Below are positions 3 through 18,931 of a stretch of 22,921 bases of DNA, one piece after another. Both the position numbers and the translations under genes were made by a program. Origin of the DNA: a virus. The stretch's first letter is position 1. Each line of letters begins with the position of its first letter. The notes beneath the pieces were generated by a model, which saw nothing but the letters and a program-made list of their open reading frames with translations, had not been told where the DNA came from and did no database searches. Location: the IMG/VR virus record IMGVR_UViG_3300034050_000227, positions 1-22,921 of that record. One strand, written 5' to 3'.

Positions 3-2822
3 CAAGTTAATAATGCCAGACTTAAGGACATGGGTATTCCTCCTGTTAGGATGAACAAACAAAAGTTAGGTATCCCAACTCAGAATCCTTTAGCTGGTAC
101 TGGAATGTTTAAACAAGGTCAACGTAACCTTGCTCAAGCTCCTATCTTCCAAGCACAAGGTACTGATACAGTCCCTGCTATGCTTACTCCCGGAGAAGCA
201 GTTATTCCTAGGGCTGCTGCACAAGACCCTAAAAATAAAAAAGCTATTAAGCGTATGGTGCAAGAAGGTCGTAAGGCTAATATGCGTGACGGTGCGGTAG
301 ATGTACATTACTCTGATGCTCCTGGACAAGCTAAGTATCATGCAGATGGTACTAGCGGTGTACCTTCATTAGCCTATCGTCATCCAGACGTACCCGGCTC
401 TTCATTCATGCATGGTACAATGAGTGTACCTGACTTTAGCCGTGGCTCTTCTGCTCAAGAAAATTATTCTAATGGTACATATGGTATAGTACCTCAACAA
501 GTGCAGTCTGCGGCAGGTTATGATGATGGTACTGAGAATGTGTCTTATGTAGATAGATTTCTTAACTTCTTAGGAGGTCAACAAATCCCCGCAACACAAC
601 CTGTTGCACCGTTAGCTTCAAACAATCCTACTGAAGTGTCTAAAGAAGATTTCTTTAAGATGAGATCTTTTGCAGAGGCATCTAATGATCCTAAAGCAAA
701 GAACCCACAACTTAATCAAACAGCTTCTAGCCTTACTGGAACTACTGCTGGTACTTTACCTTTGTATCAAAAGATTAATCCAAAGCTTCAAGGTGTTACT
801 CATAATTCTGAAGCTTATTTTAAGCCTGAGTTTCAAAGAGAATTATCTAATACTCAATATGATGATTATGCTAAACAACTTAAACAAAAAGGTTTACCTT
901 TAACAGTAGAAAATCTTTATGCTGCTGGATTTGGTCCTCGAGGTGTGTCAGCTATTGCGGCTAAAGATGATGAGCCTTTAGCTAAACATTTTACTGAAAA
1001 TGAATTAAAACAAAATAAATATTTTGGTAAAACAGCTGGTGACTTTAAAAAGTTTGTTGCTGAAAAAGCAACTAAAGCAGGTAAGTCTTTAGCACAAGCG
1101 GCTACAGATATTATTCCATCAGCACAAGCTGGAACATTGCCTGTTAATGAAGTACCTGTTGTTACAACTCCTGTGTCAGCAGTTCCTGTACCTGTTTCTG
1201 TACCACAAGTTCCAGCTAAACGTTCTGGTTTTTCTTTTGCTCGTGATAACATAATGGATTCAGGATCAACAACTGCTCAAGTACCTCCTGTAAAAGAAGC
1301 ACCTTTGTTTAATCAAAATCAACAAGATCTTATTAGATTAAGTGAAATTATTAATGATCCAGCTACCACAAACAACGATAGGAAGTGGGCTTACTCAGAA
1401 ATTAATCGTATCACTCGTAATGGTGAACCAGTAGTTCCAACAGGAACAATGACTAGCCAAGAACGTATTCGACAAGTAACTGGCTCAAATGTATTACCTG
1501 AAAAGATTAATAAACAAATAGAAGCTTCACAACCAGTTCCTGAGATTGTTCCTGATGTACCTAAGCCTGATTCTGGTATGACTGTTAACAAACCAGTTGA
1601 CGATGAAAAGTTTAATTCAATGCTTGGTCAATATGCACAACAAGTTGCTCCACAATTAGAAGTCGTTAAAGAAGAAGCTAAAAAGATCCCTGATCCTGTT
1701 GAACAAAAAAGTTTCCTTGAACGATCTATTGCTAGTTTGTTTGGTAAATCAGGTTTGTTTGGTGATCAAGAGTTAATTAAGTTTGCTTTGTTAGCCGCTG
1801 GTGGTATGCTTACAGGCGGTTCTGTTGGTGGCTCACTTAAGTTTGCTGGATTAAATACATTACAGTCTGCTGAGAAACGACAAGCTGTTGAAGCCGCTTC
1901 TAAAGCAGAAGCTGTTAAGAATACTCGTGAACTACGTGAACGATTAGACAGTGATTATCGTACTGCTCTTGGTGAGAATGTATCTCCTGAAGTACGAAAG
2001 AAAGCTATGGAACTTTATAGTCAAGCAACTACTGAAGCTCAACAACGTGCTGTTATTAATCTTCTTAAGTCTAATAAGAATGTTGAAGATAAAGATGCAG
2101 CTAAGCCCGGTACTCCTGATCAAGGTTTCTTTGATGGTAAGCCGATAACCTACAGAAGTTTTAAAGGTAATATTCAAACTGTTAATCCAAAAACAGGTGA
2201 ATGGTCAGAGATTAAACCAGCAGAATTAAATCGTTTTGAAACAATAGAACGATATGAAGCTAACAAAAAGAATATGAAAAATTCTGCTGTAGACCGTTTA
2301 ACTCCTATTTTACGCAATGCGTTTGGTAAACAAAAAGAATATCGTCCAGAAGAAGAAGCTAAAGGTTTGGCTGAAGCTTTTCTTTTACTTAAAGAAGATC
2401 TTGGTCCAAATATTTCATCAACTTCTTTTGCTAAGATGTCTGAAAACGCTACAAGAGCCGCAGTAGATTCTACTTTAAGCTCAGGTAAAACAACATTAAC
2501 AGAAGAAGCTCTTCGCAAAGCTTTCTTTGGTAATGCTGTTATTGAAACACGTATGACTGATAGTAGTCGTGATTTGTATGTAACTAAAGGTGATAAAGGT
2601 AAGCTTCAGCTTCCTTCTGCTGAGTATCAGGTTGCCTTAGGAACTGCATTAGATGTATATAAGAAACAAGGTATTCCTTTAAGCCAAGCAAGTGAACAGA
2701 TTGAAAATCGTTGGAATGGGTTAAGTCCAGCTGATAAGAAAAAGTTTACTGATATGTCTAAAGGCGCACCCGGATCAACACCCATGTTATACTGGTTAAG
2801 GACAACTGGTGGTAATATTTAA
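3..2822 (+). CDS. Ejection/internal virion protein with lytic-transglycosylase-like domain (5' partial)
   Basis: The frame is open to the left edge with no stop before the first ATG at 30, so the start lies outside the window. Residues are counted from that ATG. Near residue 44 is a GTDTVPAMLTPGE segment of the kind common in phage tape-measure and internal virion proteins. Four GT-x-x-V type repeats follow at about 105-170. Residues about 208-355 resemble phage lytic transglycosylase domains: a candidate catalytic Glu216 in SFAEASNDPKAKN, a central LYAAGFGPRGVSAI helix, and a closing FGKTAGDF segment. Such a domain would open the peptidoglycan during DNA entry. A hydrophobic glycine-rich stretch at about 581-608 could enter a membrane, and charged helical sequence follows. 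Two similarly large ejection-type genes lie downstream. The family role is inferred and the transglycosylase call is moderate. Confidence 0.7.
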   Translation, partial: QVNNARLKDMGIPPVRMNKQKLGIPTQNPLAGTGMFKQGQRNLAQAPIFQAQGTDTVPAMLTPGEAVIPRAAAQDPKNKKAIKRMVQEGRKANMRDGAVDVHYSDAPGQAKYHADGTSGVPSLAYRHPDVPGSSFMHGTMSVPDFSRGSSAQENYSNGTYGIVPQQVQSAAGYDDGTENVSYVDRFLNFLGGQQIPATQPVAPLASNNPTEVSKEDFFKMRSFAEASNDPKAKNPQLNQTASSLTGTTAGTLPLYQKINPKLQGVTHNSEAYFKPEFQRELSNTQYDDYAKQLKQKGLPLTVENLYAAGFGPRGVSAIAAKDDEPLAKHFTENELKQNKYFGKTAGDFKKFVAEKATKAGKSLAQAATDIIPSAQAGTLPVNEVPVVTTPVSAVPVPVSVPQVPAKRSGFSFARDNIMDSGSTTAQVPPVKEAPLFNQNQQDLIRLSEIINDPATTNNDRKWAYSEINRITRNGEPVVPTGTMTSQERIRQVTGSNVLPEKINKQIEASQPVPEIVPDVPKPDSGMTVNKPVDDEKFNSMLGQYAQQVAPQLEVVKEEAKKIPDPVEQKSFLERSIASLFGKSGLFGDQELIKFALLAAGGMLTGGSVGGSLKFAGLNTLQSAEKRQAVEAASKAEAVKNTRELRERLDSDYRTALGENVSPEVRKKAMELYSQATTEAQQRAVINLLKSNKNVEDKDAAKPGTPDQGFFDGKPITYRSFKGNIQTVNPKTGEWSEIKPAELNRFETIERYEANKKNMKNSAVDRLTPILRNAFGKQKEYRPEEEAKGLAEAFLLLKEDLGPNISSTSFAKMSENATRAAVDSTLSSGKTTLTEEALRKAFFGNAVIETRMTDSSRDLYVTKGDKGKLQLPSAEYQVALGTALDVYKKQGIPLSQASEQIENRWNGLSPADKKKFTDMSKGAPGSTPMLYWLRTTGGNI

Positions 2823-2840: not shown

Positions 2841-5800
2841 ATGAGCACATTAGAAGAAGACGCACGAGCATTAGCACTGGCTAATAAAAACGTTGCAGGG
2901 TCTCCAGTAACCACTATAGATGGTAAGCCTGTAGATTCCTCTGTTAAAGTAATTGACCCTGATACTATTAGGGTTGGCAATACTTCTTATCGTCTTAGGG
3001 GATTTAATGCCCCTGAGACGGCTAAGTTACAAGGCGGTATATTTGTTCCTAATCAAGTAAAGAATGATACATCTCAAGAGGATGTTAATACTATTGCACA
3101 ATTAGGTGGGTATACTAATCTTGAAACAGAAGGTAGAGACCCCTACAATCGAGTATTAGCTCGACAAACTAATAAATTAGGTGAATCACTTGGTGACACA
3201 CTTACTGCATTAGGTTTGCAAAGAACTGATTTAAATAGTTCAGATGAGGCTGTACAAAGAAATGCTACATTAAACGCTATCTCAAGAGTAATACCTGAGC
3301 TAACAAATGCTGATCCTATGTTACGACTTGCTCGTGAACGTAAAGAAGAAGCCATTGCTAAAGCTGGTGGTAACCCTTTATATGTTCCAAAGATAAACGT
3401 ACATGATGAAAAGCTTTATGCTGCAATTAAGAATTCTACAGGTATTCCTGCTGTTAAAGCAGAGCAGGAAGAGATTGCTCGTCTTGAAAGAATACTTAAG
3501 ACTGAAGAACTTAAACCAGAAACTAGAACTAAGATACAACAACAATTACAAACATCTAAAGAACGTTTATACTTAGCCGCTACAACACCTGATTTAGTAG
3601 GTGGTGTTATGATTCGCCATGGTGATCGTACTATGATGAATCAAGCTTATGACCAGTTTAGTACTACACTTCATAGAGCATCTCTTGATATGTACAAGAG
3701 TCTTGGTGGTTTGTTACAAATGACTGGTGATAAGTCCGAATGGGAATGGCTATCGGATAAAGGTCAGACAATGGTTCGGTCTACTAAAGTAGAACAAGAA
3801 GAATTAGCTGACACATTAACATCTTTTAAAGACATTAGGACTAATGATCCTTGGTCAGCTATTAAAGATACAGCTACTTATTCAGGTAACCTTGTTGCAG
3901 GTACATTACCTAGTTTAGCTCTTATGCTAGCCTCTACTGCCGCAACTGGTGGTGCAAATATCCCTGCATTAATGGCTTATGGATTGTCTACTGTTCCTAC
4001 CTCTTTAGCTTATGCTGGTGGGTTTTATGCAGATCAACCTGACGATAAAAAGAATGCTAGCTTAGCAGTGTCATTAGGTATTGGATCTGCTGTGCTTGAT
4101 AGACTAGGTCTTGAAGGTATGCTTATTGGTGGTAATGTACTAACTAAAGCTGGTCGAGATGAAATTACAGATATATTAATTAAATCTGGCAAAGCAAGCA
4201 CACAACAAGAAGCTATGAGTTTAATTGAACAAGCTACTAAACGTGAGATTGTTGATATGTCCAAGGCTGGTGCCGCATTAGCTAAACAACAATACGCATC
4301 TACTGAAGCAGCACTAAGAGGATTAGCTAAAGTTACTACATCTACAGGTGTTGAAGCATTAACAGAATCATCTCAACAATACCTAGAGATGATGGCTACT
4401 ACTGGTGTATGGGATACTGATATCCAATATGAACGTAATTTCTATCAGAACCTTATGGATGCCGCTATTGGTGGTGGAACTATGGGCGGTATGTTTGGAA
4501 CAGCAGGACAACTAAAAACTAATGCTGAGTGGCAGTCATTAGCAAATGCTCGTAGTGAATTTAATAGAGAGTTAAGTGCTGAACAATCATTTAATAATGA
4601 TCAGGTATTAAGAGTAAAAGAAGGTGATCCTAACGCTTACAATAATACAGTGAGTATGGTTAGGTCTATTAAAGATGAACCTACAAACAAACCAATTGCT
4701 TCTCTTAAAAGCTTACCTGCTTTAGAAGGTGCTTGGAATGGTTTTAAATCTATTGTTACAGATCCTGGTCGTCTTGTTAGACAACTTGTTGATACTGCCA
4801 TACCTTCTATTGTTAACGAAGATGGTACATTTAAAACTAATTTAGCTTATCTTAAGTCTATTATTGGTGGTAAAGGTATTTTACCCGGAGATAATTACTC
4901 AGGCTTTAAACAACGTCTGCAAGGTAGTTTTGCGGGTAATACTGCTGAAGAATTATCTAGTAATCTTAAGACTGATACTGCAACAGCTAATAGGATGGTT
5001 AAAGAAGCATGGCAAAGCACATGGTCTAAGGGTCAAAAGTTACCAGCAACTTCACCTCAAAATATTGAGTTACAAAACTGGAAAGATAATCTAGATACAA
5101 CTCTTATTCGTATGAAGACAGAAGCTAATAGATTTAATACTACTAGTTCTGATTTAGATTCTTCTAATCCTTTATTTGAATCTTCTACAGTTCACCCTGC
5201 TACTCTTATGGCTAATCGTGAAGCTGTTATCAGTACAATGATAAGCAATGGTAGTAACAGACGCCAAGCTAATGAAGCAGTAAACAATATTGTTTCAGGT
5301 GATGTTGACCTAGCTAAAGCGGCTAGAGACTGGATGTCTCAGTATGGTGTGTTTGCTGACCCTAAACTTAATCATGTGTTTGAAACTAACTTGTTTAATA
5401 GCATGGAGAATCTTAAAGAAAGTGTTTCTCACAGAATTGCCAATGAAGTTTTTCTTGGTAGAGATGGTGCAGTATTAGCTAAATTGCTTAAAAAGGCTAA
5501 AGATAATAATGAGTTTGAGAATGATCAACAGTACATGGATACTGTTAAGAATGTAAGAGACTGGCATGATATTGTTACTGGTAATTATAATCCATTAACT
5601 AAGTATCCTAAGCTAGAAAAGATTATTGGTTGGGGTACTACTTTAACTATGTTAGCTTCTCTTGGTAAAGCAGCTATCAGCTCTCAAGCAGAAGCAGCTA
5701 TGGCTACTTTAGGTACTAATGGTGACCAAGTAAAAGATCAATTAAAGCTTTACTTTGATACTCTTAAAACAGAGCTTGCTAGTGATCTTAATGCTGGTGC

Positions 5801-7028
5801 ATCCTTTACATCAGCACAATTAGGTATATCTTATGCTCGATACAGTCCTCATGCTACTATAAGAAAACAAATAGATGATCTTGAAAATAAGTTAAATGAT
5901 CTTCAATCTAAACCCGGAGATCATACCAAAGAATATGCTAAGATATCTTCTCAAGTAGAAGGTTTATTCCGCAAATCTTTTGGTCGTTCTTTGTTTGAAC
6001 ACTTAGGCTATAATGAAGCAGGCTACAATACACAAGCTAAATTTGAGTTACCTAACAGTAACATGAGAAAATCTATGCAAGTGTTTGCGGCTATCATTGG
6101 CTTGAGAGCTACTACAGATGCTACTCGTATATCTGCTTTGTCATTCGCTTCAGATGCTGTTGTTACTAAGCTACAAAGCTTAAGAGCTATCCCATCAGAA
6201 GATAGAGTTAAAGCTATTACTACGGGCATTGGTTTAACTAATCAACAAGGTCAAGCTGTAAAAGAACTACAAGAGTTTGGTATGGATATTTTAGGTGTTA
6301 TGCAAGTACTTGATAATATTGAAGCTAAGAACTTAAATCCGTATGAATTCTTTTCAGAACAAAACCTTACTAAAGATACTTTTCCAATTGGATCTAATGC
6401 TAAATTTCTACAAGAAAATGTATTAACTACATTAGGTAATATGATTGATGGTAAGATTGTTAATCCACAACCACATAATTTACCTAAGTATTATCATGAC
6501 CCACGACTACGTTTGATTACTGCTATGACTCGCTTTATGGCTGGTCTACATAGTACCGTGTTACCACGATTGTATCGTAATTATATTATGGAAGGTAGTG
6601 TTGGTATGCGTTATCAAGCTTTCTCTGTAGTAGCTATGGCTATTTTGTTTTCTATGATTGCTAATACTATTAAAGATGAACTATCTTATGGTGAAGAGAA
6701 TCCATATATCAAAGGTAATGTAGCTAACATACAACGTACTATTTATGGTTCAGGATTGTTAGGTCAATACGAACGATTAGTAGATGGTATTATGCCTCTC
6801 TACCCACAGAACAAGCCTTCTGTGCTGGATAACCCAGCTAAATGGTCTTATGAAACATTGAAAGATATTTCACCAGTAGTGTCATGGGCAGATAAACCTG
6901 TTCGTGGTGCTTATATGATTAGCCAAGGTGATACTGCCGGAGGTGCTGCACAGCTTGCTCGTGCTACACCTATTATTGGTAGTTTCCCTATTGTCGCTAA
7001 AGAACTTAAAGAATCTCTTAAGGAATAA
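2841..7028 (+). CDS. Large ejection/internal virion protein with N-terminal SNase-like domain
   Basis: This is a 1395-residue protein with an AGAGGA ribosome site 6 bases before its ATG. Residues about 35-125 look like a staphylococcal nuclease (thermonuclease) fold: VIDPDTIRV (Asp39, Asp41), [11 protein letters not shown] (Arg51, Glu59) and DPYNRVLAR (Arg104). These match the known enzyme's Asp21, Arg35, Glu43 and Arg87, but its calcium ligand Asp40 is Asn56 here. The rest has no catalytic motif I can name. There are long hydrophobic, small-residue-rich segments at about 340-435, charged helices, and a probable membrane helix near 1261-1277 ([13 protein letters not shown]). Size, hydrophobic segments and position between two other giant virion-type genes point to a DNA-ejection protein comparable in role to T7 gp15/gp16. 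Whether the nuclease-like domain cuts or only binds nucleic acid is unknown. Confidence 0.7.
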
Positions 7029-7032
7029 ATAA

Positions 7033-10000
7033 ATGGCTACACAAACTAAAGTTGCACCTTTAGGCTCGCCAAGAACGGGCATCTCTGCTGAACAACTACT
7101 TGCCTTACAAGGTGTTTCTACTGATATAATGGGTCAAGTACCTGCACCAGTAGAAGATCCTAATAAGGTAGTACAGGCACAGGTAGAACAATATATGCCT
7201 CAGCCTTTGGAAGTACCACAACCTACTGGTTCTTCTGAGGCTATGCTTATGCAAGCACCTCCTATCAGGACTGCTGAAGATGTTGCTATCGCTTCTCGTT
7301 CTAGGTTTGGTGCTCGTGAAGTACAAGAACCTATGATGGATGCAATGGGTAATCCTGTTGTTGATCCTGAAACAGGTCTTCCCCAATTACGTACTATTAC
7401 CCCAACAGACTACAATGCTCAACTAGAAATGGAAAAGGCTTCCCAGTTAAATACTATGGAAGCCATGCAGGGTATGTCTGCTGATCCTTATGGTCAGTCT
7501 AAAACAGCTACTGCTTCATTGTTACAAGGTCAACAAGACACTATGTTCAATGCCAGTGCTCGTCAGATGTCTAAACAGAATATGTCTGAAGATGAGATTG
7601 ATAGGTACTCAGATAAGACTGCGACAGCACTAGCTAATATTGTATCACAAACAAATGATGCATTGTTTACTTCTAATGCACGTATCAAGAGTGAAATGGC
7701 TTCGGCTGATGGCTCACCAGTACTTATTGCGGCTGGCCTTAAAGCTGCAGCAGAAGATGGCTTTACTTCTCCAGAAGAATTAGCTGATTTTGGTCTTGTA
7801 TTTGGTGTATCATTAGCTAAGTCTGCTACACAAGGTAAGGTAGAAAAGGGCGATAAAGAAGGCACAGGTCGAGTTATCTCTGATTCAGGATCAGCTATTG
7901 ATGATGCAACTTATATGCTTGACTTTATTAATTCTGTTAAACACTTTGCTACTAATGGTTTAAATCGTATTGGTAAAAAGGTATCACCTAAAGCTATCAA
8001 TGCAATGTCTAAAGCTATTGTTCAAGATGCTATTGATCGTGGTGCTATTAAAGTATTCCACGTTAATGATCGACCAGTAGTTCAAATGAGTTCTGATCTT
8101 AAAGACATTGCTCGTGACTTACAAACTGCATCAGAAGCTCTTGTAGGTGACTACAGTAGACGTAAGTCTAGCACTACACCTAACCGTAGTGGTGCTTCAT
8201 TTGCGGCTAACCGACAACAACTTACTAAGAGATCTATACGTAAACCGGGTCTTGTAATGGATGCGGCTGAAGCTACTAAAGATATTCTTGGTTCTATTGG
8301 CTTAATGTTTAATGTTAAAGATGTTCAGTATAAAGAGATTGAGTTTGGTTTAATTACATTAGATCAATACTTAGATAAAGATGAACAAGGCAAAATTAGA
8401 TGGAGTAACCATTGGGCTGCTAAACGTAACGGTGTTAGCGAAAAAGATTTCATTGCGGCTAAATTAAAAACTAGACCCAAAAAAGACTTTGATGCATCAA
8501 ATGAAAATGATGTACAACAGTTTGAAGCTCAACAAGAAAGACAAGCAACAGAAGTAATTAATAATAAACTTAAGACTCTTGAGTTTGATATTATGAATGC
8601 TAAGAATGCTCCGGGTATTCGTTACTCAGAGTGGATTCACAGTTTGTCTAATCAACGTTTCTTTCCCAACAGTTATGATACTGATTACATGGGTTCTAAG
8701 AATGGTATTAGGGATATGATTGGATTTGCATCTAAAGATTATGTCACTGGTGACAAACTTTTTGATGATAAGAAAATAGAACAACTTAAACAAACAGCTG
8801 TTAAAATCCTTCGTATGCCTGGAGAACAACAACACAAAGCTTTGGAGGCATTAAGCCCTTCTGACCGTGGTGCTATTGGTACTATGCTTAATAGTGTTAT
8901 TTATTTCTTCTCTGCTGTTGATGGCTCTGATCCTAACATTGTTAAACAATCTCCAGCAAATATTGTTGTTAAATATAATTCAAATATTGGTAATAAACTT
9001 GCAGAGTTAGGTAAAGACTTTGAACAATTCTTAGTTGACCCTGAAAATGCAACAGACAATATTCAATCTCTTCTTGCGGGTATGGAGAAGGGTGAGGCTA
9101 TGGGTGCTAAGAATCTTTGGACTGATATGTTTAATCTGAAGACTAATTTTGATAACCCTGCTACTGCTCGTGTTCATGTACCATTAACCCATCATTCATT
9201 TGATGACGGTAATCAGAATGGTATTTTCTTACAAGCTCTTTTCTTTGGTAGCCCTGATAATGCAGTACGATTAGGTACGTTTAACCCTTCCTTAGATGAC
9301 ATGCGTGAATACGCTATGAATACTATGGTAGCTAATCTTGAGCAGATGCTTAAGGATCGTCCCGAAGCTAATTCAGCTTGGATGAATTTCTTTAAGTCTC
9401 TTAAGGATGACATGGGTAAATCAGAGATTGCTAAAGAATTCTTTAAGAAACCTTTGATGCAAAATGCTTATGGTAAAGATGCATCTATGTTTAAAGAAAT
9501 GATGGTTGAATTACTTGCTGATTCATTTCAAGATAAGGCTGCTGAGTATTTACTCAATAGTCCTGCTTATAGTAATGATTTAGAGAAAGCCGCAAGTGAT
9601 CTTAATGATGCACTTGAATCTACACTCCGTGAAGTAATTAACTCTAAGTCAACTCAGGTTCTTAAAGATATTGGTAGGTATACATCTATTCTTAATACAA
9701 CTGTTATGATGCCGGGTATTACTGGTGATACCTATTTGCTAACACCTGTAGAAGTAACCCCTGTTAATAAAGCAAATGATACTGGAGAAGTGTTACCTGT
9801 TAAGCTTAAAGATGGTTCAACAGTAATGGTTAAGTATAAGTCTTATGAGACAGATACATTCATTAATTCTGCTGGACAGTCTGTAGAGATTGAGTCAACT
9901 CAGATGGGTGCTAGTCCTGCTGCAACTAAAGGTGTTCAGTTATTCTTTGATACTCGTACTAAGAAGTATGATGCGTTTAATAATGCTATTGGTACAAGTC

Positions 10001-10818
10001 AAGCACGACAAATGGTTGTGATGCCTATTCAATCTATTGACGGTGACTTAGTTAAAGCTACTACGTTGTTTGTTAACAAAGAAAAGAAGATGCCAACACC
10101 TGCATTGTGGGTTCATGACTCTATTATTTCTTCTGCTGGTGGTTCTTTGATTTATCGTAATGCTTATAACAACATTTCTATTCCTCAAGCTATCCCACAG
10201 ATTGCTAAGTTTGGAGATAAGTTTGCTAAGGTTATTAATGATGCTGAACAAGCAGAGTTTAACCGTGTTATGGATATAAGGCGTCCTGTAGGTATTGGTG
10301 ATAAGGGTGACTACCCTGCTCTTGGTGCTTACTTAGATGAACAGTATGATCGTATTCAGGATGATGGTGCTTACAAAGAACTATTCTTGAGTCGTAAATA
10401 TAATTCACAGGAAGCATGGTTAAAGTATCAACAACGTGTTAGTCAAATGCTTAAAGAAGCAGAGGCTAATGGGTGGCGAGCACCAGGATCTATACCTGAT
10501 ACTGATAGTATGGGTGGAGAACACATTAGACAACACCTTGCTGTTACACCTAGCCAATTTAAAAAGCTTGCTTTGTTAACAAAAGAAATGTTAAAGCTTA
10601 GTGGACCTGCTAACAGGTTAGATTCATGGGTACGTAACTTTAGTAATAACGTTAATAACACTGCATCTATGCTTATGACTGCGGCTAAGAAAGAAGGCAT
10701 TGGACAAATGACTTATGGTGCTACTGGCTCTCGTGCTAATATTAATAAATCAAAAGACATATATAATAAAACTGAAGATGAACGTACATTAGCATTCATT
10801 AAGAAGTATGAAGATTAA
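7033..10818 (+). CDS. Probable virion-packaged single-subunit RNA polymerase (N4 vRNAP-like logic)
   Basis: This 1261-residue protein starts 4 bases after the upstream stop, with an AAGGA ribosome site. It carries the single-subunit RNA polymerase motifs in order. A degenerate T/DxxGR motif is SNQRFF (Arg542). Motif A is PLTHHSFDDGNQNGI, with Asp725 aligning to T7 Asp537. Motif B is KKPLMQNAYG, with Lys805 and Tyr813 spaced exactly like T7 Lys631 and Tyr639. MPIQSIDG near 1000 resembles the T7 APNFVHSQDG block. Motif C is ALWVHDSI, with Asp1029 aligning to T7 Asp812. The N-terminal 350 or so residues are unrelated to T7 RNA polymerase and look like a virion-protein extension. It is the last gene of the ejection cluster, while the replication arm carries a different 733-residue RNA polymerase. 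By analogy with N4 it could be injected with the DNA to transcribe early genes. The polymerase fold is well supported; packaging is inferred from gene order. Confidence 0.82.
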   Translation: MATQTKVAPLGSPRTGISAEQLLALQGVSTDIMGQVPAPVEDPNKVVQAQVEQYMPQPLEVPQPTGSSEAMLMQAPPIRTAEDVAIASRSRFGAREVQEPMMDAMGNPVVDPETGLPQLRTITPTDYNAQLEMEKASQLNTMEAMQGMSADPYGQSKTATASLLQGQQDTMFNASARQMSKQNMSEDEIDRYSDKTATALANIVSQTNDALFTSNARIKSEMASADGSPVLIAAGLKAAAEDGFTSPEELADFGLVFGVSLAKSATQGKVEKGDKEGTGRVISDSGSAIDDATYMLDFINSVKHFATNGLNRIGKKVSPKAINAMSKAIVQDAIDRGAIKVFHVNDRPVVQMSSDLKDIARDLQTASEALVGDYSRRKSSTTPNRSGASFAANRQQLTKRSIRKPGLVMDAAEATKDILGSIGLMFNVKDVQYKEIEFGLITLDQYLDKDEQGKIRWSNHWAAKRNGVSEKDFIAAKLKTRPKKDFDASNENDVQQFEAQQERQATEVINNKLKTLEFDIMNAKNAPGIRYSEWIHSLSNQRFFPNSYDTDYMGSKNGIRDMIGFASKDYVTGDKLFDDKKIEQLKQTAVKILRMPGEQQHKALEALSPSDRGAIGTMLNSVIYFFSAVDGSDPNIVKQSPANIVVKYNSNIGNKLAELGKDFEQFLVDPENATDNIQSLLAGMEKGEAMGAKNLWTDMFNLKTNFDNPATARVHVPLTHHSFDDGNQNGIFLQALFFGSPDNAVRLGTFNPSLDDMREYAMNTMVANLEQMLKDRPEANSAWMNFFKSLKDDMGKSEIAKEFFKKPLMQNAYGKDASMFKEMMVELLADSFQDKAAEYLLNSPAYSNDLEKAASDLNDALESTLREVINSKSTQVLKDIGRYTSILNTTVMMPGITGDTYLLTPVEVTPVNKANDTGEVLPVKLKDGSTVMVKYKSYETDTFINSAGQSVEIESTQMGASPAATKGVQLFFDTRTKKYDAFNNAIGTSQARQMVVMPIQSIDGDLVKATTLFVNKEKKMPTPALWVHDSIISSAGGSLIYRNAYNNISIPQAIPQIAKFGDKFAKVINDAEQAEFNRVMDIRRPVGIGDKGDYPALGAYLDEQYDRIQDDGAYKELFLSRKYNSQEAWLKYQQRVSQMLKEAEANGWRAPGSIPDTDSMGGEHIRQHLAVTPSQFKKLALLTKEMLKLSGPANRLDSWVRNFSNNVNNTASMLMTAAKKEGIGQMTYGATGSRANINKSKDIYNKTEDERTLAFIKKYED

Positions 10819-10831
10819 TATCTAAATAAAA

Positions 10832-10875
10832 AACCCCTACTAGGATTATTCCTAATAGGGGTTATTTTTTTTTTT
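10832..10875. terminator. Bidirectional rho-independent terminator between convergent arms
   Basis: The arms are aacccctactagg (10832-10844) and cctaataggggtt (10851-10863), around a 6-base attatt loop. They pair at 12 of 13 positions on the + strand; the C-A mismatch becomes a G-U pair in the - strand transcript. An 11-base T run (10865-10875) follows on the + side. The A-rich run just before the stem gives a U tract for - strand transcripts. It lies between the stops of the + strand polymerase gene and the - strand 84-residue gene, so it should end transcription from both arms. Confidence 0.93.
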
Positions 10876-11128
10876 AACTATATTCTTTTACTTGTGCACG
10901 AGCTTCACCAGCTAACTGATCAGCCATAGTGAGAGCACTATTACTATCCATACCACGGTTAATGTAAGCGTCATAATTTTCTTTGTGCATAGCTTTAATA
11001 GCAGCCTCATTAATCTGAGGAGTGTTAGCTAAACTAGGGTCAAGACCAAGTGTAGAGCATACATCTTGATCTGTTGTTTGAGTATCACCACGAAGGGCAA
11101 AGATATTATAATGTTTTAATTCATTCAT
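10874..11128 (-). CDS. 84-residue protein of unknown function
   Basis: This is the last gene of the - strand arm, and its stop codon overlaps the T run of the terminator. The ATG overlaps the stop of the Dps-like gene as ATGA, so translation is probably coupled. The protein is soluble and mostly helical in appearance, with a segment around ICSTLGLDP-type sequence (DVCSTLGLDPSLANTPQIN) and a C-terminal half rich in Ala, Met and Asp (ALTMADQLAGEARAQV). I do not recognise a family or catalytic motif. Genuine coding is supported by the tight overlap, the position in the operon and the terminator directly after it. Confidence 0.75.
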   Translation of the reverse strand: MNELKHYNIFALRGDTQTTDQDVCSTLGLDPSLANTPQINEAAIKAMHKENYDAYINRGMDSNSALTMADQLAGEARAQVKEYS

Positions 11129-11601
11129 TTAAAACTCTTTCCAAGTGTTGCTTTAACTTTCCAATTCAATTTAGATAAGTCTTTAATATAATCGCCAATT
11201 AATGTAGCCAAACCACCTTGACTGCTGAGGTCAGCATCATCATACAATGTTTGTGAATACTCAATTAGGCAATCAAAGTCTTTGTTTAACCATGTAAACA
11301 TTTCTTTACTTGTCTTTTGTGGGCTATCACATTCAATAATTTCAGTCATCTTTAAGACTTCTTTAAGAGAGCATGGTACTGCCTTATCCATTTGACGGAT
11401 CTGTTCTCCAAGCATATCATGTTGTGCCCACAAGAAATCATAGATCTCTTCTAGTAGTGCATGATCTTGAGCAAACATTGGACCTTCTACATTGAAGTGG
11501 TATCCATGAGACTTGTAGTATGTTACAAAGTTATCAGCATAAAGTTGAGTAAGTTGTGTAATCAAACTATTACTCTTTGGTTGGGGTGGTGTCATTGCCA
11601 T
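11125..11601 (-). CDS. dps: Dps-type miniferritin (ferroxidase/DNA-protection protein)
   Basis: This is a 158-residue protein, close to the usual Dps length. The ATG at 11601 was chosen because AAGGA lies 8 bases before it; the frame also runs up to a TTG at 11649, which has no ribosome site. The N-terminal helix and turn FVTYYKSHGYHFNVEGPMF matches the Dps signature. All ferroxidase ligand positions are filled with exact spacing: His35, His47, Glu51 (Asp67 in E. coli Dps), Asp62 and Glu66, equivalent to E. coli His51, His63, Asp67, Asp78 and Glu82. The C-terminal helix KDLSKLNWKVKATL also fits. In the family, 12 subunits form a shell that oxidises and stores iron using peroxide, often protecting DNA. 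The N-terminus has few lysines, so DNA binding is uncertain. It sits among small unknown genes at the end of the operon. Shielding phage or host DNA from oxidative damage is an inference. Confidence 0.88.
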   Translation of the reverse strand: MAMTPPQPKSNSLITQLTQLYADNFVTYYKSHGYHFNVEGPMFAQDHALLEEIYDFLWAQHDMLGEQIRQMDKAVPCSLKEVLKMTEIIECDSPQKTSKEMFTWLNKDFDCLIEYSQTLYDDADLSSQGGLATLIGDYIKDLSKLNWKVKATLGKSFK

Positions 11602-11716
11602 CTTGTTTTTCCTTTTCTTTTTCCTGACCTTCAGGAGGTTTCTTGCCAAAGATCAAGTCATAATTGCTTTGGAATTTGTTTTCATCGGTTGGTCTACGAC
11701 CACTACCTTTACCCAT
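11570..11716 (-). CDS. 48-residue protein with SGRRP motif
   Basis: The ATG at 11716 overlaps the stop of the preceding gene (ATGGGTAA) and has AAAGG 5 bases upstream. A GTG at 11761 would extend it by 15 residues inside that gene and is less likely. The N-terminus MGKGSGRRPTDENKF followed by YDLIFGKK resembles a short protein type seen in many T7-like and marine podoviruses, whose function I do not know. The C-terminal half is a low-complexity charged tail rich in Lys, Glu and Gln. Its last 32 bases overlap the start of the Dps-like gene in another frame. Confidence 0.75.
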   Translation of the reverse strand: MGKGSGRRPTDENKFQSNYDLIFGKKPPEGQEKEKEKQDGNDTTPTKE

Positions 11717-12332: not shown

Positions 12333-12386
12333 TAATGACGCCTTTTACTGTAGCGGCAAACAGTCCTAAGGTGGATTCTGTTTCTA

Positions 12387-12641
12387 TTAGGTACCTGCTA
12401 AGAAAGGTTTAACCTTAGTAGGTGTAAACCCTACAGAAGTTCTGAGTACCTGATCATTGTCATCAACCATAATCATGGTAGGTACTGTACGAACCCCATA
12501 GTAGGATACTGTATCTGTATTGTTTTCAATAGGCATATTGACAAGCTCTATTTCAGGGTATTCCAACAAGGCTTCTGCTAGGAATGCATCTAATTGTTTA
12601 CATGGTTGGCACCATGCTGCAGAGAATTTAAGTAGTTTCAA
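12387..12641 (-). CDS. Thioredoxin-like redox protein
   Basis: This is an 84-residue thioredoxin fold with the active site WCQPC (Gly replaced by Gln compared with the usual WCGPC) and the cis-proline segment RTVPTMIMVD. There is no ATG. The TTG at 12641 shares TTGA with the stop of the reductase gene and gives the typical start KLLKFSAAWC; a GTG at 12650 is the alternative. The arrangement implies translational coupling to the ribonucleotide reductase, whose C-terminal cysteine pair needs a reductant of this type. In T7, host thioredoxin is also the DNA polymerase processivity factor, so this protein might serve the phage polymerase too. It is shorter than bacterial thioredoxin (about 108 residues), as is usual for phage versions. 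Confidence 0.9.
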   Translation of the reverse strand: MKLLKFSAAWCQPCKQLDAFLAEALLEYPEIELVNMPIENNTDTVSYYGVRTVPTMIMVDDNDQVLRTSVGFTPTKVKPFLAGT

Positions 12642-14549: not shown

Positions 14550-16751
14550 CTAGCAGAAGAAGTATTTAGAGTCCATAACTTCATTAAGAACTAGGCTACC
14601 TAGTTCTGGTTGATTGAACGTGAAGGTATCCTTATTATCCATAAGGTTATCTTGAAGTATGTTAAAGAAGTTTTCTACATCATACTGTGCTATGAATGTC
14701 ATCTTAGTTACTTCTTGTAGGAAATCAACTTCATCCGCATGTGTACTGAAGCTATCATGGACTGCTCCAAAAGAACCGTTAAAGCTGACGATAGTATTTG
14801 CCATGTGAGCAGCGTCATATGAGTGAACAACGTTAGGGCTGATACCAGAAGCAAAGGAACGTCTACAAGGCACACGTTCACCAGTCTCTTTGTTAAGTAC
14901 GTCAACCTTAATAACGTGCATGACCCTTCCGTCTTTATTTCCTTGAATACCTTTGATAGTTCCTCTTTGTTTCCGTTCATGCTGGAGGTAAGCCTTATAT
15001 ACCACTGGGAACCCCGAGGGTGTTGTCCATGTAAGGAGGTTTCTTCCTGAGTTGAGTTCATGTTCTGCAATCTTCTGTAAATACTTGGTTGTCTTAAGTG
15101 GTCCTGCACAGACTGTATTAATAGCCTTGATTAAGTTACCTGCTAGTACGTCACACTGGTCTTCAGTGATGTTGTATTTAACAGTATAACCTTCTACGTG
15201 ACAGTCTTCGTACATGTTCTTTGCTATACGCATCTTACCTGCACTATATGCACGAGTCATTGAGCCTCTCTTAGCTATACCTTTTCTGATATGTTTCATA
15301 GGCATATCTTTGATCTCAAAGTACTCAGGCATAATACCAATAAGTTCTTTGGCAACAGCTACGTAGAAGTCTTTCTGGATAGGTGTAGGAACAAGTGACA
15401 CCAGCGTACCAGCTTGTTTGTCTTTAGACATAGCCGCTAAGTGTTGCCATCCGTTATTACTACCATCGATAGGGATAGGTAGTCCAGACATGAACTCTTT
15501 ACCTTCCATTTTAGATCTCTTGTATCCTAGTAACTCATTACAACAAGCTAAAAAGCTATAAGACTTTTCAGCATCAGTATGTATAGTCTTAGTACGAGCT
15601 ACATCATAAATAAACTCAATGTTGTTATCTACCCATGCAACTCTATCTTCAAGAGTCATCTTGTCTACTGATATAGTATCAAGACCTTCACCCTCAAGAT
15701 AAGCTCTATAGTCTGTCTTAAAGTACTTAGGTATATCACTGATGATAAAAGACTTATTAAAGCAAGCTGCTGTATGTACCTTGATCCAGAATAAACCTCT
15801 CTCAGTAACCTTCTTTTTGTTAGCAAACATAAACAAGCTACGAGCTAAATCACTACCTTGGAACTCTAAGAATGATTCTGCATAATATACTCTACCTCGG
15901 TAGTCACAAGAGACTTCCTGAAAGAAAGTTCTTTCACCAATCATCTCAGCTTTCTTAAGCACTTGCATGTACTCAAAGTATTTACTCATCATACGTTGTA
16001 GCTTAGGATCTTTCTTACCAAGGAACTTAGTACCATCTGTATGAGATAGTTTCTTAGGTAGCTCTAGGTTTTCATGGTGTATATTGTATTCTCTTACAAC
16101 ACCATCTTCATCGATCAACTCAAGGATTTCTTTAGGAGTCTGTGCTTGCATAGCATTTAACACTGGTATGTTAAGCTTCCAAGACTGCTGACGAAGGGTC
16201 TCAAGGGATCTTACAAAGGTTTTATTAAGGTTATCATGGAATAGCTTAGAGTTAGTCCAGCCCTTAATAAAAGGTTCTTTAGTTAATGGGCTATAGAGAC
16301 CCATGATAGGTAACAAAGGTTCAAACGATGTACCAATTAATGTTGGCTTAATATCATCTGCTTGATTAACAATACGTACCATATAGGGAGCTTTGTATCC
16401 TGCATATTCCCTGAAGATGTCAATCAGTCCATCTTGAAGGAACGTTTCGAGAAGAAGATCTCCAAGCGATAGAGTTGACTTGATATCAAGTTCGTCAGCT
16501 CCAATAGCTCTTGCAATTCTTTTTCCGATAAGGTCAGAAGCAAAGGTGAGTTTAACAGAGGCGCTATGCGTTGCGTTCTTGTTACGAATGCAGTATCTAA
16601 GGAGGGTATCCCAAGACTCGTTGATAAATCTTTCAAGTTCATATTCCCATGTTGGGTAGTGTGCTAGAAGGCGAGCACCCTCATTGTAGATCTTATCTGA
16701 GTTGGGGACAACCTTCGATACACGTTCAGTAAGATAATTTAATGGATTCAT
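14550..16751 (-). CDS. T7-like single-subunit RNA polymerase (733 residues)
   Basis: This DNA-dependent RNA polymerase of the T7/mitochondrial family shows all core motifs: CDYRGRVYY (DxxGR, Arg287), motif A IDGSNNGWQHLAAM (Asp429), motif B KRGSMTRAYSAG (Lys494, Tyr502), the SPNVVHSYDAAH block and motif C VHDSF (Asp666). T7 has YG after motif B's Tyr; here it is YS. The C-terminus DSKYFFC is aromatic like the T7 foot. At 733 residues against 883, most of the loss is in the N-terminal promoter-binding region. That makes it closer in size to the combined two-part N4 RNA polymerase II. Its ATG follows the primase-helicase stop directly (TAAATG) with no clear ribosome site, suggesting re-initiation. 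It probably transcribes middle or late phage genes; its promoters were not identified. Confidence 0.96.
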   Translation of the reverse strand: MNPLNYLTERVSKVVPNSDKIYNEGARLLAHYPTWEYELERFINESWDTLLRYCIRNKNATHSASVKLTFASDLIGKRIARAIGADELDIKSTLSLGDLLLETFLQDGLIDIFREYAGYKAPYMVRIVNQADDIKPTLIGTSFEPLLPIMGLYSPLTKEPFIKGWTNSKLFHDNLNKTFVRSLETLRQQSWKLNIPVLNAMQAQTPKEILELIDEDGVVREYNIHHENLELPKKLSHTDGTKFLGKKDPKLQRMMSKYFEYMQVLKKAEMIGERTFFQEVSCDYRGRVYYAESFLEFQGSDLARSLFMFANKKKVTERGLFWIKVHTAACFNKSFIISDIPKYFKTDYRAYLEGEGLDTISVDKMTLEDRVAWVDNNIEFIYDVARTKTIHTDAEKSYSFLACCNELLGYKRSKMEGKEFMSGLPIPIDGSNNGWQHLAAMSKDKQAGTLVSLVPTPIQKDFYVAVAKELIGIMPEYFEIKDMPMKHIRKGIAKRGSMTRAYSAGKMRIAKNMYEDCHVEGYTVKYNITEDQCDVLAGNLIKAINTVCAGPLKTTKYLQKIAEHELNSGRNLLTWTTPSGFPVVYKAYLQHERKQRGTIKGIQGNKDGRVMHVIKVDVLNKETGERVPCRRSFASGISPNVVHSYDAAHMANTIVSFNGSFGAVHDSFSTHADEVDFLQEVTKMTFIAQYDVENFFNILQDNLMDNKDTFTFNQPELGSLVLNEVMDSKYFFC

Positions 16752-18359: not shown

Positions 18360-18518
18360 TTAATTCCAGTCTCTGTTATCTTTATACTCTCTAATACGTT
18401 CTCTTCGATCTTTAGCTTCTTGTTGAGTTTCTTTCTTACGTTTAAATTGATTTTTGAAATCTTCTTTTAATGAAGGGATTTCTTTTTCAAGTGGTTTAAT
18501 AGGCTTATTCTTATTCAT
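18360..18518 (-). CDS. 52-residue highly charged protein, unknown function
   Basis: This small gene fills the gap between the endonuclease and the primase-helicase. Its ATG overlaps the endonuclease stop as ATGA and its TAA is 3 bases before the helicase ATG. The protein begins MNKNKPIKPLEKEIP and is then an almost continuous run of Lys, Arg, Glu and Gln, ending in DNRDWN. This is consistent with one charged helix or coiled coil that could bind nucleic acid or a replication partner. Its perfect fit between neighbours supports real coding, and it may also carry ribosomes towards the helicase start. No family is recognised. Confidence 0.65.
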   Translation of the reverse strand: MNKNKPIKPLEKEIPSLKEDFKNQFKRKKETQQEAKDRRERIREYKDNRDWN

Positions 18519-18931
18519 GATTTAGGTTTTAAAAACTTGACGGCTCCAATGTTGCCATTGTACCAGAGGCGCTCTCCATCAGGAGTTTCATCTCTTGAAA
18601 GGACTTCACACGACCATTGCTCTTGGACTTCCCTATACGTAAGCATCCCTCTTCCGTATACCCAGTCATATATAACAAAAGTAAATGTTTCAACTCCATA
18701 CAACTCAATATCATCAAGGAGTTCTCGACAGGAGGATCTGTAAGTTCTCCAATCAGACTCTCTTCGAGTCTTAACTCTGCGCTTTGCTCCTGTAGGTAAT
18801 CTGGATGTTTCACTTATGAGTTGCTTTCTTCCGATGTATTGTCTTCCAGTTGGTCCAAAGACTGCATAGATGAATCCGAAGGCGTTGGCTGGTCGCTCTG
18901 TGAGGGCAATCCAGTGTCCGTAGTCTTCCAT
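18515..18931 (-). CDS. GIY-YIG endonuclease
   Basis: This 138-residue protein has a GIY-YIG nuclease core. FGFIYAVFGPTGRQYIGRK holds the two signature strands (Tyr22, Tyr32, Gly34), with arginines at about 51-57. SDWRTYRSSCRELLDDIELYG is the segment common in phage versions, and Glu101 or Glu104 in YREVQEQW is the likely metal-binding Glu. AAAGGA lies 9 bases before the ATG at 18931, which fixes the start even though it lies 118 bases inside the exonuclease gene in another frame. It sits between the exonuclease and helicase genes where T7 relatives often keep a recombination nuclease, so it may resolve branched DNA or degrade host DNA. A free-standing homing endonuclease is the alternative. 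Confidence 0.75.
   Translation of the reverse strand: MEDYGHWIALTERPANAFGFIYAVFGPTGRQYIGRKQLISETSRLPTGAKRRVKTRRESDWRTYRSSCRELLDDIELYGVETFTFVIYDWVYGRGMLTYREVQEQWSCEVLSRDETPDGERLWYNGNIGAVKFLKPKS

Follow-up and report, generated by a model that had tools for sequence, protein, structure and literature searches.

A compact single-subunit RNA polymerase, a candidate virion enzyme, encoded beside ejection-type proteins in a family of podovirus-like phages

Introduction

Does a phage protein of 1261 amino acids (aa), encoded next to a large ejection-type protein, act as an RNA polymerase that the virus carries in its own virion? The question is raised by a 22,921-base virus fragment from IMG/VR (the whole stretch analysed, here called the window), in which a first-pass annotation had recognised motifs of the T7-like RNA polymerases in an open reading frame and proposed that its product is packaged and injected. 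Virion-carried single-subunit RNA polymerases are documented in the N4-like phages (Schitoviridae), where they comprise about 3500 aa, with 2083 aa in one phage (PMC11705849). The protein in the window was correctly described as about a third of the size of the N4 virion RNA polymerase (vRNAP). A survey of N4-like viruses removed vRNAP-like candidates under 2500 aa (PMC10654107); compact forms would therefore be missed, and this may explain the absence of reports. We found no description of the family in the literature searched, many subscription papers lying outside its reach.

We identify the protein as a single-subunit RNA polymerase, and the assignment is firm on the basis of conserved catalytic residues and a confidently predicted fold. 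Its packaging, and its use of hairpin promoters, are considered in turn below.

Results

Conservation of the catalytic motifs

The motifs A, B, IQSIDG and C are found at the residues where they had been placed, with D725, K805, Y813 and D1029 as the key positions (Table 1). R542 had been assigned to a degenerate T/DxxGR motif. The arginine is indeed conserved, but its context is SLSNQR and there is no recognisable motif.

We gathered relatives by scanning viral contigs with the window protein, with the conserved NAYNN block and with an alignment. These scans recovered some 45 distinct proteins, on phage contigs of up to 64 kb, whose identity to the window protein ranges from about 16 to 95%. 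D725, Q728, Y813, D1003 and D1029 are conserved in all 44 aligned sequences, and R542, K556 and R560 in 42 of 42. Residue 805 is lysine in 35 proteins and arginine in nine. Because the catalytic residues, apart from the Lys/Arg at 805, are invariant across some 45 related proteins, the motif pattern is more than chance. Comparison with the two closest relatives gives ratios of non-synonymous to synonymous substitution (dN/dS) of 0.08 and 0.09, indicating purifying selection.

The family is distant from everything annotated. Single-sequence searches with the window polymerase gave no match in Pfam, PHROGs or PDB sequences, and the family profile found nothing relevant among PDB sequences. Neither the window protein nor any of 41 members matches PF00940, and none of the 41 matches phrog_2206, the N4 vRNAP family. 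A scan of genome contigs found no cellular or prophage relative. Among 50,697 phage records the sole relative from an isolate is gp33 of Roseobacter phage CRP-7 (QBQ72826.1), which lies in the same gene neighbourhood. The automatic label had been expected to be 'internal virion protein'; gp33 is in fact labelled 'hypothetical protein', and the accessible part of the published description of CRP-7 (PMC6918029) makes no mention of it.

All nine arginine-containing proteins belong to the CRP-7 clade (L001, L008, L011-L015, L018 and L053). Every member has arginine in place of the motif B lysine and DA in place of DG in motif A, and G730 is lost; M809 is not kept either. A third subfamily (L095 678-4514 and L096 7670-11506) carries the motifs LDATQSG, KQPIMQFFYGKPA, VIHQLDNA and IIYDA. 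Here the histidine of motif C is replaced by tyrosine, and there is a histidine at the position of T7 H784.

Table 1. Coordinates of features in the window and of hairpins in genomes of relatives (G numbers).
Feature	Position	Strand	Evidence or remark
Compact single-subunit RNA polymerase, candidate virion RNA polymerase (1261 aa)	7033..10818	+	motifs, conservation, predicted fold
Codon of R542, probable equivalent of T7 R425 / N4 R424; invariant K556 and R560 downstream	8656..8658	+	42/42 of family
Motif A FDDGNQNGI, residues 723-731 (D725; G730 at place of T7 G542)	9199..9225	+	D725 44/44; in register with T7 D537
Motif B KKPLMQNAYG, residues 805-814 (K805, M809, Y813)	9445..9474	+	compare T7 KRSVMTLAYG, N4 KNPLTITIYG
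IQSIDG block (QSxDG), residues 999-1004, equivalent of T7 VHSQDG	10027..10044	+	profile register, family alignment
Motif C WVHDS, residues 1026-1030 (D1029)	10108..10122	+	D1029 44/44; predicted strand-turn-strand
Family signature NAYNN, after motif C	10159..10173	+	YNN 44/44; served as DNA probe
First protein of three-gene cluster, p1 (930 aa)	30..2822	+	relatives upstream in family loci
Ejection-type protein p2 (1395 aa), upstream neighbour of polymerase	2841..7028	+	family loci with enough flank
Staphylococcal-nuclease-like N-terminal region of p2	2943..3170	+	invariant D39, D41, T42, R51, E59, R104
Intrinsic terminator between polymerase gene and convergent leftward genes	10832..10863		14-pair stem, T tail
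Ordinary T7-type RNA polymerase (733 aa)	14550..16751	-	PF00940 5.7e-57, phrog_414 4.2e-98
TTAGCAGGTACCTAATAG, copy of dispersed putative T7-type polymerase promoter	12384..12401	-	match to dispersed element
Ferritin-like (Dps-type) protein	11125-11649	-	PF00210 2.7e-12
SegE-type GIY-YIG endonuclease-like gene, adjoins exonuclease gene	18515-18931	-	PF19835 3.2e-26
Type 1 hairpins	G003 29171; G005 25222/25508; G006 25754; G007 29017; G010 24813/25100/25309; G012 24002/24243	-	before immediate-early genes
Type 2 hairpins	G005 24437/24834; G006 24992/25372; G007 28461; G008 24401; G010 24058/24434; G012 23596	-	before immediate-early genes

Profile comparison and predicted structure

Profile comparison with T7-type polymerases pairs residues 724-1037 with T7 536-820 and brings motifs A, B, HSxD and C into the same register. 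It scores 41.9, while 60 column shuffles reached at most 23.8 and the reversed profile 21.8. Against the N4 vRNAPs the score is 38.8 (shuffles at most 22.5), from a weak match confined to the region of motif C. The stated probability of the match to T7 is low, at 17%, so that the identity would not be settled by sequence alone. N4 vRNAP reaches 96% against T7, and is thus clearly the closer of the two to the T7 enzyme.

Residues 62-1261 were modelled with AlphaFold2 from an alignment of 41 members of the family. The model has a predicted local distance difference test score (pLDDT) of 86.4 and a predicted template modelling score (pTM) of 0.86, and a right-hand polymerase fold. All of the 50 best PDB matches found by Foldseek are single-subunit RNA polymerases, including those of yeast mitochondria (6.6e-13), T7 (1.3e-11) and N4 (1.9e-9), and the named matches in a viral library are mostly RNA polymerases. 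D725 lies at the end of a strand and K805 within a helix, Y813 coming directly behind that helix, and a pair of strands is linked by a turn at H1028-D1029, all as in T7. From this register and topology we infer that D725, K805, Y813 and D1029 converge in one active site. The first-pass identification as a single-subunit RNA polymerase is borne out by the conserved catalytic residues, by the confidently predicted fold and by its structural matches. An RNA polymerase fold with an intact active site is almost certainly present in the clade that retains the lysine, and the protein is very probably catalytically active.

Gene neighbourhood

The polymerase gene is the third of three large rightward genes (encoding 930, 1395 and 1261 aa), and the order p1-p2-polymerase is conserved in loci with enough flanking sequence. 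In CRP-7 the same three genes close the operon running through terminase, portal, capsid and tail. In N4 the vRNAP gene follows two ejection proteins, and thus takes the same place as the polymerase gene at the end of the CRP-7 late operon. In G002, G003 and G007 the polymerase gene is followed by a terminator identical in sequence to that of the window.

The neighbouring protein p2 provides a further connection. Three of its relatives match phrog_6958 'virion structural protein' (best 4.5e-23), and four match phrog_2206 (1.4e-8, 1.7e-6, 3.4e-4 and 0.037), always at about positions 190-470 of the profile with a near-constant offset, corresponding to the N4 N-terminal domain; on the p2 side it is the middle of the protein that shows the resemblance. 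A nine-sequence N4 alignment gave a weak collinear match to p2 in the same register. Blast with the N4-like region of p2 yielded no more than a marginal match, at E 0.06, with a Pseudomonas phage tf virion structural protein. Membrane helices are predicted at 224-278 in the N-terminal domain of N4 vRNAP, and on its own this domain goes into membrane nanodiscs (PMC12633501). The matches to N4 vRNAP are suggestive of a split version of the N4 arrangement, in which the part resembling the N-terminal domain would be encoded by the adjacent gene.

Some results weigh against this. The match is weak and occurs in four of 20 p2 members, that of the window not among them. A p2 profile compared with a three-sequence alignment of N4 N-terminal domains failed to match. 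The AlphaFold2 model of p2 residues 1-1200 is poor (pLDDT 64) and its PDB matches are meaningless, in contrast to the model of the polymerase.

The late-gene position, the gene order and the similarities of the neighbour together favour virion packaging, and we consider it likely that the polymerase is packaged. The evidence is circumstantial but coherent; it suggests packaging followed by injection, and supports them better than did the first-pass annotation.

Separately, p2 has a nuclease-like segment (IDPDT...RLRGFNAPE...YNRVLA) whose key residues are invariant in 26 aligned sequences. From its sequence, this domain may be injected with the DNA.

A T7-type polymerase and the early hairpins

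The window encodes a second, ordinary T7-type RNA polymerase that had been overlooked. It is also present in 21 of 24 family records, and the other three contigs may be incomplete. An element TTAGCYGGTACCTAATAGRRAA is dispersed in intergenic regions of several relatives' genomes, with one copy in the window, and is presumably the promoter of the T7-type polymerase.

We rotated the genomes of relatives to start at motif C with the polymerase on the plus strand. In these oriented genomes the start of the leftward genes lies some 3-6 kb upstream of where TTAGCYGGTACCTAATAGRRAA first occurs in leftward orientation. Two hairpin elements are found repeatedly in this immediate-early region, placed 25-45 nt ahead of start codons and often beside a second, variable hairpin. 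They sit exclusively at immediate-early genes without the T7-type element, and are found in most of the relatives examined.

The type 1 hairpin is NNAGC-G(N)TCTT-GCTNN (for example AGAGC-GATCTT-GCTCT). Ten of its 11 matches lie at the early end, and all ten have complementary outer pairs, either AG/CT or AC/GT; the eleventh, located elsewhere, has none. The type 2 hairpin has the conserved loop GGTANGTA (for example CTTGG-GGTAAGTA-CCAAG), which has 94 matches in about 590 kb. Nine of these have a fully complementary 4-bp stem, where 0.37 would be expected, and all nine are at the early end on the coding strand. Their stems are of three kinds, TTGG/CCAA, CAGG/CCTG and AGAG/CTCT. Both elements were defined after being seen and homologous copies are not independent, so that the counts describe rather than test.

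The N4 vRNAP reads hairpin promoters with conserved bases, in which variable bases of the stem need only to pair (PMC4496689). The hairpins found here, with conserved loops and compensatory stems, are candidate promoters for the putative virion polymerase, as in N4. Strict N4-style hairpins, with a 6-bp stem and a 3-nt loop, are not commoner than in shuffled sequence.

Other genes of the window

The leftward genes beyond the terminator include those for thioredoxin, B12-type ribonucleotide reductase, the T7-type RNA polymerase, primase-helicase, exonuclease and DNA polymerase A. A ferritin-like gene and an endonuclease-like gene are also found (Table 1).

Discussion

A proposed mechanism for starting transcription

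We propose, with moderate confidence in the scheme as a whole, that these phages begin transcription with an enzyme they bring with them. A compact, highly diverged single-subunit RNA polymerase would be made late, enter the virion along with two further large ejection proteins, and then be injected with the phage DNA. Once in the cell it would transcribe the immediate-early genes, its promoters probably being hairpins, and so bring about production of the T7-type polymerase. That second enzyme would then serve the middle and late genes through dispersed promoters of its own. The action would resemble that of N4 vRNAP, with the membrane or ejection part on a neighbouring gene and no N4 C-terminal domain. 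Transcription of the immediate-early genes by this polymerase is slightly favoured on balance, and its initiation at the hairpins is possible, at a little under even chances; the assignment of each polymerase to its element is inferred. Against the scheme, strict scans found neither type of hairpin in CRP-7, G004, G009, G002 or G011, of which G002 and G011 may lack the region.

If this is correct, the 1261-aa form would show the minimum that is needed and would separate the polymerase from the parts required for delivery. It would also provide a more tractable enzyme for the study of transcription from hairpin promoters, and the start of transcription in a mostly uncultured group of phages would become testable through the isolated phage CRP-7.

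Alternative explanations

Two alternatives concern the nature of the enzyme. Seven of the 41 members touch PF00476 (best E 0.0019), as might a protein related to the family-A DNA polymerases. Yet the best structural matches are exclusively RNA polymerases, the family profile scores 25.0, near background, against the phages' own DNA polymerase A, and the phage has its DNA polymerase A as a separate protein. In the main clade motif A has glycine, not glutamate, at the sugar-selecting place, with G730 where T7 has G542 and M809 where T7 has M635. These residues and the near-background score favour an RNA over a DNA polymerase, and we have rejected the family-A identity as very improbable. The protein might instead be an ejection protein that has kept the polymerase fold and lost activity, or that uses the fold only to grip and pull DNA. 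The divergence from T7, far beyond that of N4 vRNAP, would fit this, as would the CRP-7 clade, where K805 is arginine in nine of 44 proteins and the motif A glycines are changed; the arginine may weaken or abolish activity there. Against this, the metal-binding aspartate pair, the tyrosine and the arginine are invariant in 42-44 proteins, the lysine is retained in the 35 outside the CRP-7 clade, and the low dN/dS indicates constraint. We regard an inactive protein as unlikely.

The remaining alternatives accept an active polymerase and concern its role. It could be expressed late and act within the same round of infection, never entering the virion. Packaging is deduced from context, and sigma-70-like matches occur in some early regions, where host polymerase could do the early transcription. 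G003, the one genome of the window's own clade with a hairpin (a single copy), has four such matches of at least 10/12 at its early end, compared with 0.6 expected; the window itself stops short of the early end. But the gene comes third and last in a set of large late genes, adjoining that for p2 with its virion-structural and N4-vRNAP-like relatives, and a T7-type polymerase is already there for the middle and late genes. A purely intracellular role is accordingly improbable in our estimation. The hairpins themselves might be leader structures of RNA transcribed by host polymerase, acting in stability, translation or antitermination. This is a serious alternative, only somewhat short of an even chance: the hairpins lie close before start codons, often with a variable partner, and the sigma-70-like matches of G003 lie upstream. 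Yet the hairpins are confined to immediate-early genes without the T7-type element, and of the nine early stretches scanned, eight contain at most one strong sigma-70-like match, roughly the level in shuffled sequence. We retain promoters for the putatively injected polymerase as a candidate function. The most extended proposal is more tentative: that these widespread podovirus-like phages use a virion-carried single-subunit RNA polymerase of yet another lineage, independent of those known, a third of the size of N4 vRNAP and apart from its membrane anchor, reading two classes of hairpin promoter (loops G(N)TCTT and GGTANGTA) before the immediate-early genes.

Comparison with known systems

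The closest functional parallel would be the vRNAP of N4 (gp50, Schitoviridae; phrog_2206). Both have the single-subunit RNA polymerase fold, predicted here, both share KxPL....YG in motif B and an arginine with lysine and arginine downstream, and both are encoded by the last gene of a late cluster after two ejection proteins, in genomes with a second, T7-like polymerase. Early genes have hairpins in both systems, in our case in relatives of the window phage, where the loops are of 5-8 nt rather than 3 and the genomes about 58-64 kb. The window polymerase differs in its domain plan from the N4-type chain of N-terminal, polymerase and C-terminal domains. Its 1261 aa, against about 3500, leave no room for an N4-type C-terminal domain, and the part resembling the N-terminal domain, if the weak match is real, is on the neighbouring gene. 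There is no significant sequence match to the N4 family. Motif A of N4-type vRNAPs is ExDGxxxG (PMC10654107), whereas the main clade has xDDGxxxG or xSDGxxxG and most of the CRP-7 clade ExDAxxxN.

The T7 RNA polymerase family (PF00940, phrog_414) shares motifs A, B, HSxD and C and their order, and the predicted fold has a template modelling score (TM-score) of 0.56 to T7 (3e3j) by target length. Unlike T7 RNA polymerase, the window protein has a longer N-terminal part and no PF00940 match, and its gene is in a late operon beside ejection-type proteins, in a phage that has a genuine PF00940 member as well. CRP-7 gp33 is of the same family, from an isolated phage, with about 18-24% identity, arginine for the motif B lysine and DARQSNA in motif A. 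T7 likewise encodes three consecutive ejection proteins behind its tail genes, the internal virion proteins gp14-gp15-gp16. No polymerase is among them, and the window proteins gave no match to gp15 or gp16 when profiles were compared. By sequence the polymerase lies outside both PF00940 and the N4 family, and we class it as a new, compact form of the virion-type single-subunit RNA polymerase.

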